This document shows positions 58,118 through 62,916 of a stretch of DNA of 64,000 nt, piece by piece. The position numbers were made by a program, and so were the translations under genes. The DNA is from Cryptosporangium aurantiacum (GTDB lineage Bacteria > Actinomycetota > Actinomycetes > Mycobacteriales > Cryptosporangiaceae), in assembly GCF_900143005.1 (NCBI RefSeq), contig NZ_FRCS01000005.1:1-64000 (forward strand), read 5' to 3'. Numbering within the stretch: the stretch's first letter is position 1; every line of letters starts with the position of its first letter. The notes below the pieces were generated by a model. The model was not told the origin of the DNA. It ran no database searches and saw only the letters and a program-made list of their open reading frames with translations.

Positions 58118-58686
58118 CGGTCAGTCCTGCGGTGCGGTCACATTTCTCTGGTACACAAAACGATGTGACAACGTCGTCCCACCCGCCGCCCGTCGGCGTG
58201 ATCACGATCCGCGCGGCCGTGCCGGCCGAGTACGCGACGATCGGTGAGCTCACGTACGACGCCTACGCGGCTGATGGCCTGCTGGCCAACGATTCGGACT
58301 ACGCCGAGGAACTTCGCGACGCCGAGCACCGGGCCAACCACTGTGAACTACTCGTCGCGATCGACGAGCAGGGCCGGTTGCTCGGAACGGTGACGTTCTG
58401 CCTCCCCGGTTCGCCCTACGCCGAGCTCTCTCACGAGGGCCAGGCCGAGTTCCGGATGCTGGCGGTGGCCCCCGACCAGCGCGGACGGGGAGTAGGCACC
58501 CGGTTGGTCAGAGAGTGCCTTGAGATGGCCGCCCGGAACGGTGCGCGCAGCGTCGTCCTCTCCACCAAGGTGCAGATGAACACGGCGCAGCGGCTCTACG
58601 GCCGGTTCGGGTTCGAGCGCACACCGCAGCTCGACTGGGCCCCGACCGACGGCGTCGAGCTGCTCGCCTACACCAAGACGCTGTGA
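58114..58686 (+). CDS. GNAT family N-acetyltransferase between bioB and bsaP
   Basis: This 190-residue acetyltransferase has the acetyl-CoA loop [21 protein letters not shown] (motif A) and [14 protein letters not shown] near the C-terminus. Substrate unknown. GTG 58114 overlaps the bioB stop by 4 bp; GTG 58165 is an alternative that trims a poorly conserved 17-residue N-terminus. It also overlaps bsaP by 4 bp, so it is translated as part of the biotin operon, but no acetylation step is known in biotin synthesis. Confidence 0.87.
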
Positions 58687-58865
58687 GCGAGTACTGCGGC
58701 CGCTGCGGTGAGCCCCTCGACGGCCGGGAACACGACGCCTGCGTCCGGGCGCTCGCGCTCGAACCACCGCGCTTCTGCCCGTCCTGTCGCCGGCGCATGG
58801 TCGTGCAGGTCACGCCGGTCGGCTGGTCGGCGCGATGCTCCCAGCACGGGGTGACCGTCAGCTGA
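58683..58865 (+). CDS. bsaP: Biotin synthase auxiliary protein BsaP
   Basis: This 60-residue protein has six cysteines at 5, 8, 20, 32, 35 and 52 in CGRCG and CPSC-type pairs, with the conserved core [24 protein letters not shown]. It matches BsaP, a small metal- or cluster-binding protein reported as necessary for biotin synthase activity in mycobacteria. GTG 58683 overlaps the acetyltransferase stop by 4 bp, placing it in the bio operon, as expected. Confidence 0.9.
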
Positions 58866-58932
58866 GCCCGGGCGACTCGGTCCCCGTTCACCGTGACATG
58901 CTGGAGAGCGACGTCAACGGAAGGAGACCGAG

Positions 58933-59007
58933 ATGGCTCGGCGCGCTCGTAAGAAGAAGGCCCGGAAGAACAAGAAGGCGAACCACGGTCGCCGTCCCAA
59001 CAGCTGA
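58933..59007 (+). CDS. Ribosomal protein bL37
   Basis: This 24-residue, extremely basic peptide (MARRARKKKARKNKKANHGR, then RPNS) matches the actinobacterial small ribosomal protein bL37 seen in mycobacterial 50S structures, with the characteristic ANHGxRPN ending. AAGGAG lies 6 bases before ATG 58933. It is followed by a strong terminator. Being so short, it is easily missed by gene finders. Confidence 0.88.
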   Translation: MARRARKKKARKNKKANHGRRPNS

Positions 59008-59030
59008 TCACGGCTGCGGAGACAAATGAA

Positions 59031-59058
59031 CGCCCCCGCCGGTGAACCGGCGGGGGCG
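59031..59058. terminator. Terminator between bL37 and rsrA
   Basis: A perfect 13-bp inverted repeat (CGCCCCCGCCGGT / ACCGGCGGGGGCG) with two central bases lies 23 bp after the bL37 stop and 24 bp from the convergent rsrA stop. Confidence 0.85.
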
Positions 59059-59082
59059 TAGTCGTTCTCGAAGCGTCGGAGG

Positions 59083-59397
59083 TCAGGCCTCGCGCCGGAC
59101 CTCGATCGTCGTCTCCTCGTAGACGGCACGCGACCCGTCGTCGGATACCACGGCCTGGCGGATCGTGGTGATCAGGCGACGCCGCAGGCTGTCCGGCGCG
59201 ACCTCGCCGCCGCAGCAGCGAGCCACCAGCGCCTTGACCTCCTGCTCGATACCGAACTCGCGCAGGCACGGCCCGCACTCGTCCAGGTGCTCGGCGATCT
59301 TCTCCCGGCTCGGCCCGTCGGTCTCCGCATCCAGGTACAGCCATACCTCGGCCAGCACCTCGGCGCAGTCGACCTCGTGTGGTCCACCGCAGCTCAC
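59083..59397 (-). CDS. rsrA: Zinc-binding anti-sigma factor RsrA (RshA)
   Basis: This 104-residue redox-sensing anti-sigma factor is of the ZAS family. The zinc ligands fall at Cys11, His37, Cys41 and Cys44 (HLDECGPC), and there is a further Cys pair near residue 62; these positions match S. coelicolor RsrA. Oxidation forms disulphides, releases zinc and frees SigR. GTG 59397 overlaps the sigR stop by 4 bp. Confidence 0.95.
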
Positions 59398-60164
59398 GAC
59401 GACACCCCCTCGGGTGCGGCGCGGACGATTCCCCGGTCCAGCGCGTACTGCTCCAGCTGACGCCGCAGGTTACGTCGCCCACGGTGCAGCCGCGACATCA
59501 CGGTGCCGATCGGCGTCCCCATGATGTCGGCGATCTCCTTGTAGGAGAAGCCTTCCACGTCGGCCAGGTAGACCGCGAGACGGAACTCCTCCGGCAGCGC
59601 CTGCAGCGCGTCCTTCACGTCCGAGTCCGGCAGCCGGTCGAGCGCCTCGACCTCCGCCGAACGCAGCCCGGACGACGAGTGCGACTCGGCCGCGGCCAGC
59701 TGCCAGTCCTCGATCTGCTCGGTCGGGCTCTGCTGCGGCTGCCGCTGGCGCTTGCGGTAGTTGTTGATGAAGGTGTTCGTGAGGATGCGGTACAGCCAGG
59801 CCTTGAGGTTCGTGCCCGCCTGGAACTGGTGGAACGCCGCATACGCCTTGACGTACGCCTCCTGCACGAGGTCCTCGGCGTCGGCCGGGTTGCGCGTCAT
59901 CCGGAGCGCCGCGGCGTAGAGCTGGTCGAGGTACGGCAGTGCGTCCCGCTCGAACCGCGCGTTGCGCTCAGCCACCGTCTCCGTCGACTCCGCCGTCACC
60001 TTGGCCGACGCCGCCTCGTCGGCAGCGTCCTGACCAGGCTCTGCGTCGACGTCCGGCTGCGCGCCGGCCACGTCGTCGGGCTGAGGGGCTGTGGGCAAGT
60101 CTTCTCCAGGCTGGATGGGCGTCGGGACCGAACCCGACCGGAGCACCGATACCGGGCTCGTCAT
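59394..60164 (-). CDS. sigR: Thiol-oxidative-stress sigma factor SigR (SigH-type)
   Basis: This ECF sigma factor of 256 residues runs from ATG 60164. Region 2 is [38 protein letters not shown] and region 4 is [41 protein letters not shown]. It directs thioredoxin, mycothiol and proteolysis genes during disulphide stress in relatives and is inhibited by RsrA. The frame is open for another 83 codons to GTG 60413 (339 residues), which a SigR-type promoter would feed directly. Both a short constitutive and a long induced isoform are plausible, as described for S. coelicolor. Confidence 0.94.
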
Positions 60165-60421
60165 AGAGGATAGGCGGAGCGCGCCTCCACTGCCGTAACC
60201 CGCATCACCACTGGTCGTAACGACCGTGTCGAGCTTGACAGCATTGCGGCTGATCGGCGACCCGAAATTCACCGCCTTCGGGTCGGACATATCTCCGAGC
60301 ACCACGGTCGGCTCCGACCGCTCCAGCTCCGCCAGCGCACCCGGGCTACCCGTCACCATCCGGGGCAAACCCTGAGCCGTCTTCTGATCCCATACGGTTC
60401 GCTCATCCCACACGCCCGGAC

Positions 60422-60447
60422 AACACAGCCATCCGGGCGAATGTTCC
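60422..60447 (-). promoter_or_regulatory. SigR-type autoregulatory promoter
   Basis: On the minus strand GGAAC (60447-60443) is followed by exactly 18 bases and then GTTG starting at 60424, matching the SigR/SigH consensus GGAAT-N18-GTT. Only 8 bases separate GTT from the GTG at 60413, so the transcript would begin at or next to that codon and encode the long SigR form. Confidence 0.8.
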
Positions 60448-60474
60448 GCCAGGTCGTGGTTTTAGCATCGCCGC

Positions 60475-60957
60475 ATGGCAGGCCGAGGGACCCCAGCGAC
60501 ACAGGCACTCACGAAGGCACGTGCCGGATTCACTGTTCACGAGTACGAGCACGACCCGGCGTCCGGCTCGTACGGGCTGGAAGCGGCACAGGCGCTGGGC
60601 GTCCCGCCCGAGCGGGTGTTCAAGACGCTGGTCGCACAGGTGGACGGCGCGCTGCATGTCGCGGTCGTGCCGGTGACCGGCGACCTCGACCTCAAGGCGC
60701 TCGCGGCCGCGGTCGGCAAGAAGCGGGCGTCGATGGCCGACCCGACGCTCGCCGAACGGACGACCGGTTACGTCCGGGGCGGGATCAGCCCGCTCGGACA
60801 GCGGAAGCGGCTGCCGACCGTGGTGGATGCCAGCGCCGAGACGTTCGAGACCGTGTTCGTCTCGGCCGGGCGGCGCGGGCTCGAGGTGGAGGTCTCACCC
60901 GCGGACCTGACCCGCCTGACCGCGGCCACCGTCGCCCCGATCGCCGCGGCCGGTTAG
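60475..60957 (+). CDS. ybaK: Cys-tRNA(Pro) deacylase, YbaK/EbsC family
   Basis: This 160-residue editing protein hydrolyses mischarged Cys-tRNA(Pro). Family features are YEHDPASGSYGLEAAQALGV, RVFKTLVAQVDG (conserved Lys), VVPVTGDLDLKALAAA, and GYVRGGISPLGQRKRLP. ATG 60475 lies 6 bases after TAGCAT (60463-60468), a leaderless start. It is divergent from the sigR promoter and convergent with the hydrolase, whose stop codon it overlaps. Confidence 0.93.
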   Translation: MAGRGTPATQALTKARAGFTVHEYEHDPASGSYGLEAAQALGVPPERVFKTLVAQVDGALHVAVVPVTGDLDLKALAAAVGKKRASMADPTLAERTTGYVRGGISPLGQRKRLPTVVDASAETFETVFVSAGRRGLEVEVSPADLTRLTAATVAPIAAAG

Positions 60958-61718
60958 TCCGCCCAGGTACGAGCGCGGAGCCAGGCGACCACGAGCTCCG
61001 CGACGGCCTCCACGGCCTTCTTCAGGCCGTGGTCGGCGCCGGGAAGCACGTGCAGCGTCATGTCCCCGACGACCGGCGGGACGCCGAACGGGTCACGGTC
61101 TCCGTTGAGAACCAGCGTCGGCCGGTCCCGGGGCAGCTCATCCACGCGAGTGCGCTCCGGCTTGCCCGGCGGATGCGTGGGGAACGCCAGCGCCACCACC
61201 GCGGCGGCGTCGAGTTCGGCCGCGGTACGGCAGGCCACCCTGGCGCCGCTGGAGCGCCCGCCGACGACGAGCGGGCAGCCGGGCACGGCGTCCCGCACGA
61301 CCGGAACCACGTCCAGCCAGGCTTCGTCGAGATGGTTCGCCGGGGCGGGTGCCCGTCGGCCGGCCACCCGGTAGGGCTGGGTCACCCTGGCGACGGCGAC
61401 ACCTGCCGCCACCGCCGCGGCCGTGACCGCCGCCAGGTCCGGGGCATCGACGTCACCCCCGGCGCCGTGGCCGAGGACCAGCAGAGATCCGGCCGGGCCG
61501 GACGGACGCTCGAGCAGGACCCGAGCCGGCCCGCGTCGGGTGGGAACGTCCAGGAGGAGCCCCCCGGCGGGCTCCCCCAGTGGTTCGCCTCGCGTCAGCG
61601 AGGCTGGTGAGACCTGACCTACGTATCGCGCCGGATCGTGTCCGCGCGTTCCGACCGCGCGCGTGTCGCGTTCGTGAACGAGGTCGGTGCGCCGGCCACT
61701 CCGGTCCGATTCCGCCAT
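60954..61718 (-). CDS. Alpha/beta hydrolase family protein (dienelactone-hydrolase-like)
   Basis: The catalytic triad is visible: nucleophile Ser in GGRSSGARVA, Asp in NGDRDPFG and His in PGADHGLKKA, with the oxyanion strand LVLGHGAGGD. Substrate unknown. The start is a puzzle: the only ATG/GTG/TTG in frame before the domain is ATG 61718, which lies inside the upstream whiB gene and forces a 100-bp overlap. The first 37 residues (to about GQV) look like a shadow of whiB. A CTG start or reinitiation near 61600 is possible. Confidence 0.8.
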   Translation of the reverse strand: MAESDRSGRRTDLVHERDTRAVGTRGHDPARYVGQVSPASLTRGEPLGEPAGGLLLDVPTRRGPARVLLERPSGPAGSLLVLGHGAGGDVDAPDLAAVTAAAVAAGVAVARVTQPYRVAGRRAPAPANHLDEAWLDVVPVVRDAVPGCPLVVGGRSSGARVACRTAAELDAAAVVALAFPTHPPGKPERTRVDELPRDRPTLVLNGDRDPFGVPPVVGDMTLHVLPGADHGLKKAVEAVAELVVAWLRARTWAD

Positions 61719-62017
61719 GCCACCAGCATCGCGCGTCGTTCCCGCGGCGTCGTACCGCCCCAGACCCCCTCACAGTCGCCGGCGTTCAACGCGGCGGCGA
61801 GGCAGTCTGCCTGGACGTCACAGGAGTGGCAGAAACTGAGCGCCGGATCGGCCGGTTCGGTGGGGAGCGGGAAGAACGTCTCCGGGTCGACGGTCCGGCA
61901 GCGACCGCGTGTGCGCCATGTCGGGTCGGCCGGTCGTGCCGCCCTCGCCGCCAGCAACCGGGGATCGCGGCTCGCCGCGAGCACCTCATGTGGCCTCGGC
62001 AGCCTGGCCCGAGTCAC
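61619..62017 (-). CDS. WhiB family transcriptional regulator, second copy
   Basis: This 132-residue WhiB protein has four cluster Cys ligands: one in GRCRTVDPETFFP, then CHSC and VQADC, and the turn CEGVWGGTTPRERRAML. It is longer than WhiB1 at both ends, with an Arg/Ala-rich N-terminus and a 30-residue polar tail. It is not a clear WhiB1-7 ortholog by eye. GTG 62017 has AGGAGA 9 bases before it. It lies between the SRAP gene and the hydrolase on the same strand. Positions 62018-62199 contain no further gene. Confidence 0.9.
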   Translation of the reverse strand: MTRARLPRPHEVLAASRDPRLLAARAARPADPTWRTRGRCRTVDPETFFPLPTEPADPALSFCHSCDVQADCLAAALNAGDCEGVWGGTTPRERRAMLVAWRNRTGVAGAPTSFTNATRARSERADTIRRDT

Positions 62018-62199
62018 GTGTCTGCTCTCCTTCCTGCACGGGTGCGTGCCTGTACCGGTGTCCCCGTGACACGGGCGCCACCCCCGGCGGAAGCGCCAGC
62101 AGTAAACCGTGTGCCACGGGCTACGTCACAGACAACGAGGCGGGGAAGGGGTCGTTACGGGGTTTCGCCAGCGGTCTCGGCCGCCGTGGACAAACCCAC

Positions 62200-62916
62200 T
62201 CAGAACAACGTGTCGAGCGGCACCGGAGCCGGCTGGCCGACCGCCGCCCTGAGCTCCGGACCGTTGTTCCGGACGTTGCCGACCGCCGGGCCGACCGGCC
62301 GCAGCTCCATCCCGGCGAGCCAGTCAGGCGTGGGCGGGACGAGCAGCGCGGCCGAATCCACCGGCGACTCCCCCAGCCACTCGGCCCACCGCTCGCGCGG
62401 CAGTAACAGCGGCATCCGGTGGTGAACCTCGCTCAGCGGCGCGAGCGCCTCGGTGGTGACGATCGAGCACGTCGCCACCTTCTCGTCGCCGGAGCCCCAG
62501 ACCTCCCACAGCCCGGCGAAGACGCACGGACCGCCGTCCGCCCTGGTCAGGTACCACGCCTGCTTGCCCGGCCCGTCGGGACGCCGTGACCACTCGTACC
62601 AACCGTCCGCGGGCACCAGGCACCGGCGGCGCGCGAACGCCGACCGGAACGCGGGCTTGGACGCCACCGACTCGGCGCGGGCGTTGATCATCCGCGCCCC
62701 GGCCGACACGTCCGCGGACCACGACGGCACCAGGCCCCAGCGCAGCGAGTCGACGACCCGGCCACCCCGGGACGCCGATACCCGGACCACCGGCACGTCG
62801 GTGGTGGGCGCCACGTTGTAGTCGGGACGCAACGGCTCGTCGAACGCGGTGCCGATCGCGTCGAACTCGGCGACCAGGTCGTCCGAGCTTCGGGTGGAGG
62901 CATACCGACCGCACAT
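62200..62916 (-). CDS. SOS response-associated peptidase (SRAP/HMCES, YedK)
   Basis: This 238-residue DNA-protein crosslink protein caps abasic sites in single-stranded DNA. The catalytic Cys2 follows the initiator Met (MCGRYAST). Other conserved residues are [18 protein letters not shown], the Asn in MINARAESV, the Glu in GWYEW, and the His in [12 protein letters not shown] 62916 is certain because Cys2 must be exposed; TAACGT lies 7 bases upstream. It is divergent from aroA, as in M. tuberculosis. Confidence 0.95.

Follow-up and report, generated by a model that had tools for sequence, protein, structure and literature searches.

The window analysed here, the whole stretch of 64,000 nucleotides from Cryptosporangium aurantiacum (contig NZ_FRCS01000005.1, positions 1 to 64,000), carries a sigR-rsrA locus on its minus strand (Table 1). 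The two genes matched NCBIfam profiles TIGR02947 and then TIGR03988, the latter with an HxxxCxxC motif, which places them as a redox ECF sigma factor of the SigR/SigH type followed by an RsrA-type anti-sigma factor. A SigR-type promoter (p2) was found upstream of sigR, and after it an in-frame start codon that would add an N-terminal extension, which is the layout of a two-promoter sigR operon. Counted from this codon, the long-form frame covers positions 59394-60413. By its anatomy, as read from the DNA, the locus is a two-promoter, two-isoform sigR operon of a predicted leaderless variant. A gene for a YbaK/EbsC Cys-tRNA(Pro) deacylase (60475-60957, plus strand, TIGR00011) lies divergently from sigR, its ATG only 27 nt from the p2 -35 element. 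Sequence homologous to this gene region, as judged by eye, was also found upstream of sigR in the congeners.

Table 1. Features of the sigR-rsrA locus in the window.
Feature	Position	Strand	Evidence or remark
SigR/SigH-type promoter p2, sigRp2 equivalent, GGAACA-N17-GTT	60422..60447	-	Sequence; kept in 4/4 congeners
GTG, putative long-isoform start, predicted to coincide with p2 +1	60411..60413	-	8 nt after GTT; GTGTGGGA invariant in 4 congeners
105-codon predicted N-terminal extension, long isoform only	60099..60413	-	Open in 4/4 congeners
p1 -10 element TATCCT (inferred)	60167..60172	-	Inside the extension; read in frame within L-S-S
ATG, usual start according to the first-pass annotation, probably unused	60162..60164	-	No Shine-Dalgarno seen; CTG in L004
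Shine-Dalgarno GGAG of the putative short isoform	60104..60107	-	GGAGAAGACTTG invariant in 4 congeners
TTG, probable short-isoform start	60096..60098	-	5 nt after GGAG; invariant in 4 congeners
sigR, short isoform	59394..60098	-	ECF sigma factor; TIGR02947 SigH_actino, 354 bits (cut-off 251.6)
rsrA, zinc anti-sigma factor	59083..59397	-	Overlaps sigR stop; TIGR03988 antisig_RsrA, 100 bits (cut-off 62.5); HLDECGPC motif

Read on the minus strand, p2 consists of GGAAC (60447-60443), 18 nt and GTT (60424-60422), and a further 8 nt (60421-60414) lead to the GTG (60413-60411), which is in frame with SigR and opens a frame of 339 codons. The first-pass annotation had described this arrangement, GGAAC-N18-GTTG and then GTG 60413 in frame with sigR, and it proved exact. 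Written as GGAACA-N17-GTT, p2 also fits the consensus given for SigH, the mycobacterial orthologue, in M. tuberculosis (GGAAYR-N17-18-GTT, PMC4803200). The SigH open complex has been solved by crystallography; its triplet is numbered G-11 T-10 T-9, with C or G preferred at -5 (PMC6411747). Since GTT occupies -11 to -9 in that complex, the p2 +1 is predicted at the first base of the GTG (60413), and p2 RNA is predicted to be leaderless, with the GTG as its first codon; position -5, counted on the window with the same numbering, is a C. The p2 motif alone is weak evidence because GGAAC-N17-19-GTTG has 220 matches in the 9.58-Mb genome on both strands, versus 50 for the reversed pattern. Yet the pair of p2 and GTG stands above chance, since it is conserved in all four sampled species of the genus and recurs across the order (74 of 122 loci, see below). 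The earlier proposal of a SigR-type promoter with its predicted +1 at an in-frame GTG is supported by the SigH numbering and by conservation in the four sampled species of the genus. The locus very probably encodes a second, longer form of SigR, whose start codon would coincide with the transcription start of its own stress promoter. With an offset from GTT to the start of 9 in most lineages, and not 8, the +1 might precede the start codon by one base.

Close relatives were represented by three other species of the genus (n = 4 with the window) and by one species of the sister genus (L005). Promoter p2, the GTG (8-9 nt after GTT) and the open frame were all present in the four sampled species of the genus, and stop codons, which had been named as a possible refutation if present in close relatives, were found in none of the four extensions. 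The segment GTGTGGGA was invariant across the four congeners, and the DNA just upstream of the promoter had diverged. For part 1 of the extension, dN/dS ranged from 0.35 to 0.57 in five congener pairs and reached 0.99 in the sixth. The locus of the sister genus displayed the promoter without a start codon at +7 to +11; its first in-frame GTG occurs farther on, after a Shine-Dalgarno-like GGAG.

Two sets of loci were surveyed beyond the genus. The order set (61 genomes and a 200-genome draw) yielded 142 loci, taken by best E-values, of which 137 were anchored; families f3, f4 and f8 were thinly sampled in it. The named set comprised the best 80 of 556 loci (Streptomyces, Micromonosporaceae, Actinomadura and others). 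Five of the 222 loci had no recognised anchor (L020, L147, L148, L149 and L216), and L067 was also left out. One promoter was kept per locus, chosen by a simple score, and family and genus labels were assigned by reading of tables.

Upstream of sigR, GGAA[CT]-N17-19-GTT was present in 122 of the 137 anchored order loci. An in-frame, open ATG or GTG followed at +7 to +11 after GTT in 74 of these 122, at exactly +9 in 59 of them. Background rates of ATG or GTG at +12 to +65 were 0.055 per position in frame and 0.016 out of frame, from which about 11 in-frame starts would be expected at +7 to +11 instead of 74. Out-of-frame ATG or GTG codons occurred at +7 to +11 in 15 of the 122 loci, four of which belong to the window's genus, where GTGTG holds both. 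Counted by genus, at least one leaderless locus was recorded in 31 of 48 genera, and in 26 every locus displayed this layout.

The distribution among families was uneven. Leaderless loci accounted for 4/5 promoter-bearing loci in f1 (4/4 in the window's own genus), 3/14 in f2, 4/5 in f3, 2/6 in f4, 0/1 in f5, 1/1 in f6, 0/1 in f7, 0/2 in f8, 2/2 in f9, 9/19 in f10, 1/1 in f11, 1/2 in f12, 26/26 in f14, 1/17 in f15 and 20/20 in f16. Family f8, which we take to be the mycobacterial kin, had five analysable loci out of seven; the strict promoter was found in two, neither of them leaderless. In the named set, the promoter occurred in 75 of 79 loci and the leaderless geometry in only four of the 75, against about seven expected at the order background rate. 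Leaderless initiation is not essential to the switch, because L005, nearly all of f15 and most of the named set lack it. The promoter motif, the open and conserved frame, the GTG at the predicted +1 and the recurrence of this layout are all features of the sequences themselves.

The short form would come from a second promoter, p1, inside the extension. According to Yoo et al., the p1 region of S. coelicolor spans -84 to +7 relative to the RNA start and -125 to -34 relative to the start codon (PMC4921905); these coordinates place the p1 +1 about 41 nt before that codon. If the codon meant is the annotated GTG, the p1 +1 falls 50 nt before the GTC, about 6 nt after TATCCT. From this arithmetic on the published coordinates and from its own position, TATCCT is very probably the p1 -10 element. 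The p1 RNA of the window would then start near 60160, just past the first base of ATG 60164. A sigma-70 scan of 60100-60700 found no full promoter, p1 included.

The first-pass annotation had placed GTG 60413 83 codons upstream of the usual ATG. The distance to ATG 60164 was right, but the usual start is probably another codon, TTG 60098, from which the short form most likely begins; the extension then counts 105 residues and not 83. Its presence in three of the four congeners might suggest ATG 60164 as the real start of the constitutive form, which we regard as very improbable. The codon is CTG in L004, no Shine-Dalgarno sequence was seen before it and, as it lies only 2 nt past the inferred p1 -10, it would be upstream of the predicted p1 RNA start, p1 RNA beginning after it. 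TTG 60098 appears the better candidate, and the in-frame pair of Shine-Dalgarno and TTG was also present in the sister-genus locus.

Positions 60076-60209 (minus strand) are highly conserved within the genus. This stretch takes in GGTGATGCGGGTTACGGC (60209-60192), which lies ahead of the p1 -10; neither a good -35 nor an AT-rich WblC-type site was recognised in it upstream of that element. Synonymous change in the interval from ATG to TTG amounted to 0-0.055 per site versus 0.20-0.32 in the core, as expected from overlapping promoter and leader signals. The predicted p1 leader contains a hairpin (GTCGGG-TTCGGT-CCCGAC, 60121-60138, minus strand) with a stem kept in the four congeners. RNA structure was rejected as the cause of conservation: the predicted p1 leader was not more stable than shuffled sequences, and the 5' end of p2 RNA showed no excess stability (fold z-scores 0.51 and 0.49, respectively). 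Rfam gave no match at E up to 0.1 in a scan of 58500-62500.

Three tests agreed that the extension looks translated. In nucleotide alignments of 45 loci from nine groups of relatives, all 37 gap blocks of the extension were multiples of three; both ends were set in frame, which makes the gap total a multiple of three by construction, but not the single blocks. Pooled pN/pS was 0.62 in frame versus 1.27 and 1.18 in the shifted frames (0.40 to 0.72 in the eight groups, from protein-guided codon alignments of pairs at 75% identity or more). The third test concerned TATCCT, the most enriched hexamer between p2 and sigR, present in 40 of 122 order loci and 57 of 75 named loci where about one was expected in each set. 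Its phase relative to sigR was constant in all 97 loci, which show 32 different distances, and was shared by 137 of 138 loci when variants were included, some of which contain TAG and are barred from some phases. A promoter element would otherwise have no reason to keep phase, which argues that the DNA from TATCCT to sigR is translated. Two results told against translation: one of the six congener pairs had a dN/dS near 1, and base composition was only weakly coding-like, with G+C by codon position of 0.69, 0.57 and 0.76 in the genus extensions and 0.67, 0.43 and 0.92 in the core. The phase of the p2-to-p1 distance by leaderless class was dropped as evidence, being circular for the leaderless class.

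These results bear on a simpler reading in which p2 only amplifies the short form, through a leader of about 315 nt ending at TTG 60098, the GTG and the open frame being incidental. At high G+C an open frame seen in a single genome counts for little, the Shine-Dalgarno and TTG start are invariant in the genus, and promoter plus leader could account for the conservation near p1. An untranslated leader, on the other hand, would not be expected to show what 31 of 48 genera have, an in-frame start at 7-11 nt past GTT, nor a frame-only pN/pS signal, gap blocks in phase in 37 of 37 cases and TATCCT locked to a single phase in all 97 loci, and we consider this reading unlikely. Translation of the extension from the GTG remains the preferred interpretation.

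Only congeners had an extension with detectable similarity to that of the window (4 of 197 loci, the window's own among them, by P-values that ignore relatedness). The first-pass remark that the extension looks different from that of S. coelicolor was borne out, and the comparison across relatives proposed there showed a genus-specific sequence with a frame-only pN/pS signal in groups of relatives. V-S-S or L-S-S recurred among extensions and was examined as a shared degron motif, which was rejected because the p1 -10 hexamer read in frame explains it.

Streptomyces served as positive control. The operon of S. coelicolor is transcribed from sigRp1 and sigRp2 and produces SigR and an unstable SigR' (Kim et al. 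2009, as cited in PMC5472188 and PMC4921905), the p2-made form carrying 55 or 58 additional residues and decaying with a half-life of about 10 min (PMC4921905, PMC5472188). Feeney et al. described for Streptomyces an extension of 58 residues from an upstream ATG and a GTC start in 32 of 34 genomes, with GTT as short start in a minority of species (PMC5472188). Among the 42 Streptomyces loci with a promoter (within L051-L109), the published AGGAGGTG-N6-GTC/GTT start was found in all, as GTC in 34 and GTT in eight. The extension had 58 codons in 25 of the 42 and 51-79 in the others, and TATCCT preceded the short start in 34, its end lying 56 nt away in 33 loci and 38 nt away in one. The scripts of this control recover the published Streptomyces anatomy. 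In 38 of the 42 loci the SigR' ATG occurred 39-61 nt after GTT, so that p2 RNA has a leader there.

By sequence, the window and S. coelicolor share an upstream promoter of the SigR-dependent type, an in-frame N-terminal extension with p1 (a putative p1 in the window) inside it, and an rsrA overlapping downstream. They differ in the start of the long form, a leadered ATG there and a GTG at the predicted +1 here; in the extension, 55 or 58 residues there and about 105 of unrelated sequence here; and in the short start, GTC there and probably TTG here. The first-pass annotation had suggested the geometry of S. coelicolor in a different lineage and a conserved switch; the layout does recur in the order (74/122), but the Streptomyces part of the claim did not hold, its ATG being leadered.

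Other known systems were also compared. SigH-RshA of M. tuberculosis shares an orthologous sigma factor and the promoter consensus (PMC4803200, PMC6411747), and three of 25 newly mapped SigH start points lie within 5 bp of an annotated start codon (PMC4803200). The sigE gene of M. tuberculosis, encoding a stress sigma factor homologous to SigR, is likewise expressed on a leaderless RNA. This RNA, however, comes from a p1 with a WhiB7 motif and not of the SigR/SigH type, and the passage concerned mentions no long isoform (PMC4921905). In C. glutamicum, sigH-rshA is an orthologous stress sigma/anti-sigma operon with a SigH motif of GGAA[TC] and GTT, but three sigH promoters look SigA-dependent and a SigH-type promoter drives rshA (PMC3489674). 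In the passages of the SigR/SigH literature cited here, no statement of a leaderless SigR' was found, and the one leaderless case encountered was sigE p1 (PMC4921905); an earlier mention in Kim 2009 or Kim 2012 is possible. A longer SigR is known from Streptomyces, and the leaderless arrangement looks new.

We propose the following switch. In unstressed cells, p1 (-10 TATCCT, 60172-60167) would give an RNA from near 60160, and its translation from TTG 60098 would yield the short form of SigR, kept inactive by RsrA. Under thiol-oxidative stress, RsrA would free SigR, which would then transcribe its own operon from p2. This RNA would begin at GTG 60413 and, being leaderless, would be read from its 5' end into SigR with the 105-residue N-terminal extension. 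The start codon opens p2 RNA and is missing from p1 RNA, which would restrict synthesis of long SigR to cells whose SigR is already active. On the model of S. coelicolor, this form would be short-lived, and the pulse would therefore end quickly. Both promoters and both starts are presumably used. A p1/p2 sigR-rsrA operon with a leaderless long SigR gated by SigR activity is in our judgement the best explanation of the locus, and we hold it with considerable confidence.

The instability of the long form and a role of Clp protease are suggested by analogy. No strict GGAA[CT]-N17-19-GTT was found in the scanned regions before clpP1, for which congener G002 gave the same result, nor in those before clpX and a clpC-like gene, which gives no support to the protease loop of Streptomyces; weaker or remote promoters, or indirect control of these genes, may nevertheless exist. 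In the same genome, strict SigR-type promoters precede trxB and a clpB-like gene (clpC- and clpB-like labels were assigned by frame length). As the extension is genus-specific and strict promoters were not found before these clp genes, the case for instability rests on analogy and, if conserved, instability cannot depend on conserved sequence. The same two observations would suit a leaderless long isoform that is not a short-lived pulse form, its extension altering RsrA binding, promoter choice or localisation, or being neutral. Such an outcome is a minority possibility, though a serious one. Against it, the long form of S. coelicolor, whose extension is different, has a half-life of about 10 min (PMC4921905), and an unrelated sequence could still serve Clp as an unfolded handle. 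By analogy, a short-lived long form is our preferred reading.

It seems likely, with somewhat less assurance than for the operon itself, that across much of one actinobacterial order long SigR has its start codon fixed at the very first base of the RNA made from its SigR-dependent promoter. SigR would thereby gate the long isoform leaderlessly while an in-frame p1 gives the short form. Leadered (Streptomyces, f15) and leaderless loci would then be two translational solutions to one feedback loop, and the latter could stay active where stress impairs Shine-Dalgarno initiation. In M. tuberculosis reporters, leaderless translation was more robust than Shine-Dalgarno translation under some stresses (PMC8485053); to apply this to sigR of the window is speculation. 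What evolution appears to keep is the rule that only SigR-made RNA encodes the long form, and not the sequence of the extension, and the leaderless layout would enforce this rule with no spare nucleotide. The locus offers a simple system in which leaderless translation under oxidative stress could be put to the test. Predicted sigR starts in the order may also need checking. Among the variants of the layout, genus g37 of family f16 (L158, L164, L165, L180 and L185) has a sigR p2 that departs from the strict motif, and in L164 and L165 the -10 is CTT for GTT, yet the GTG stays at +9.
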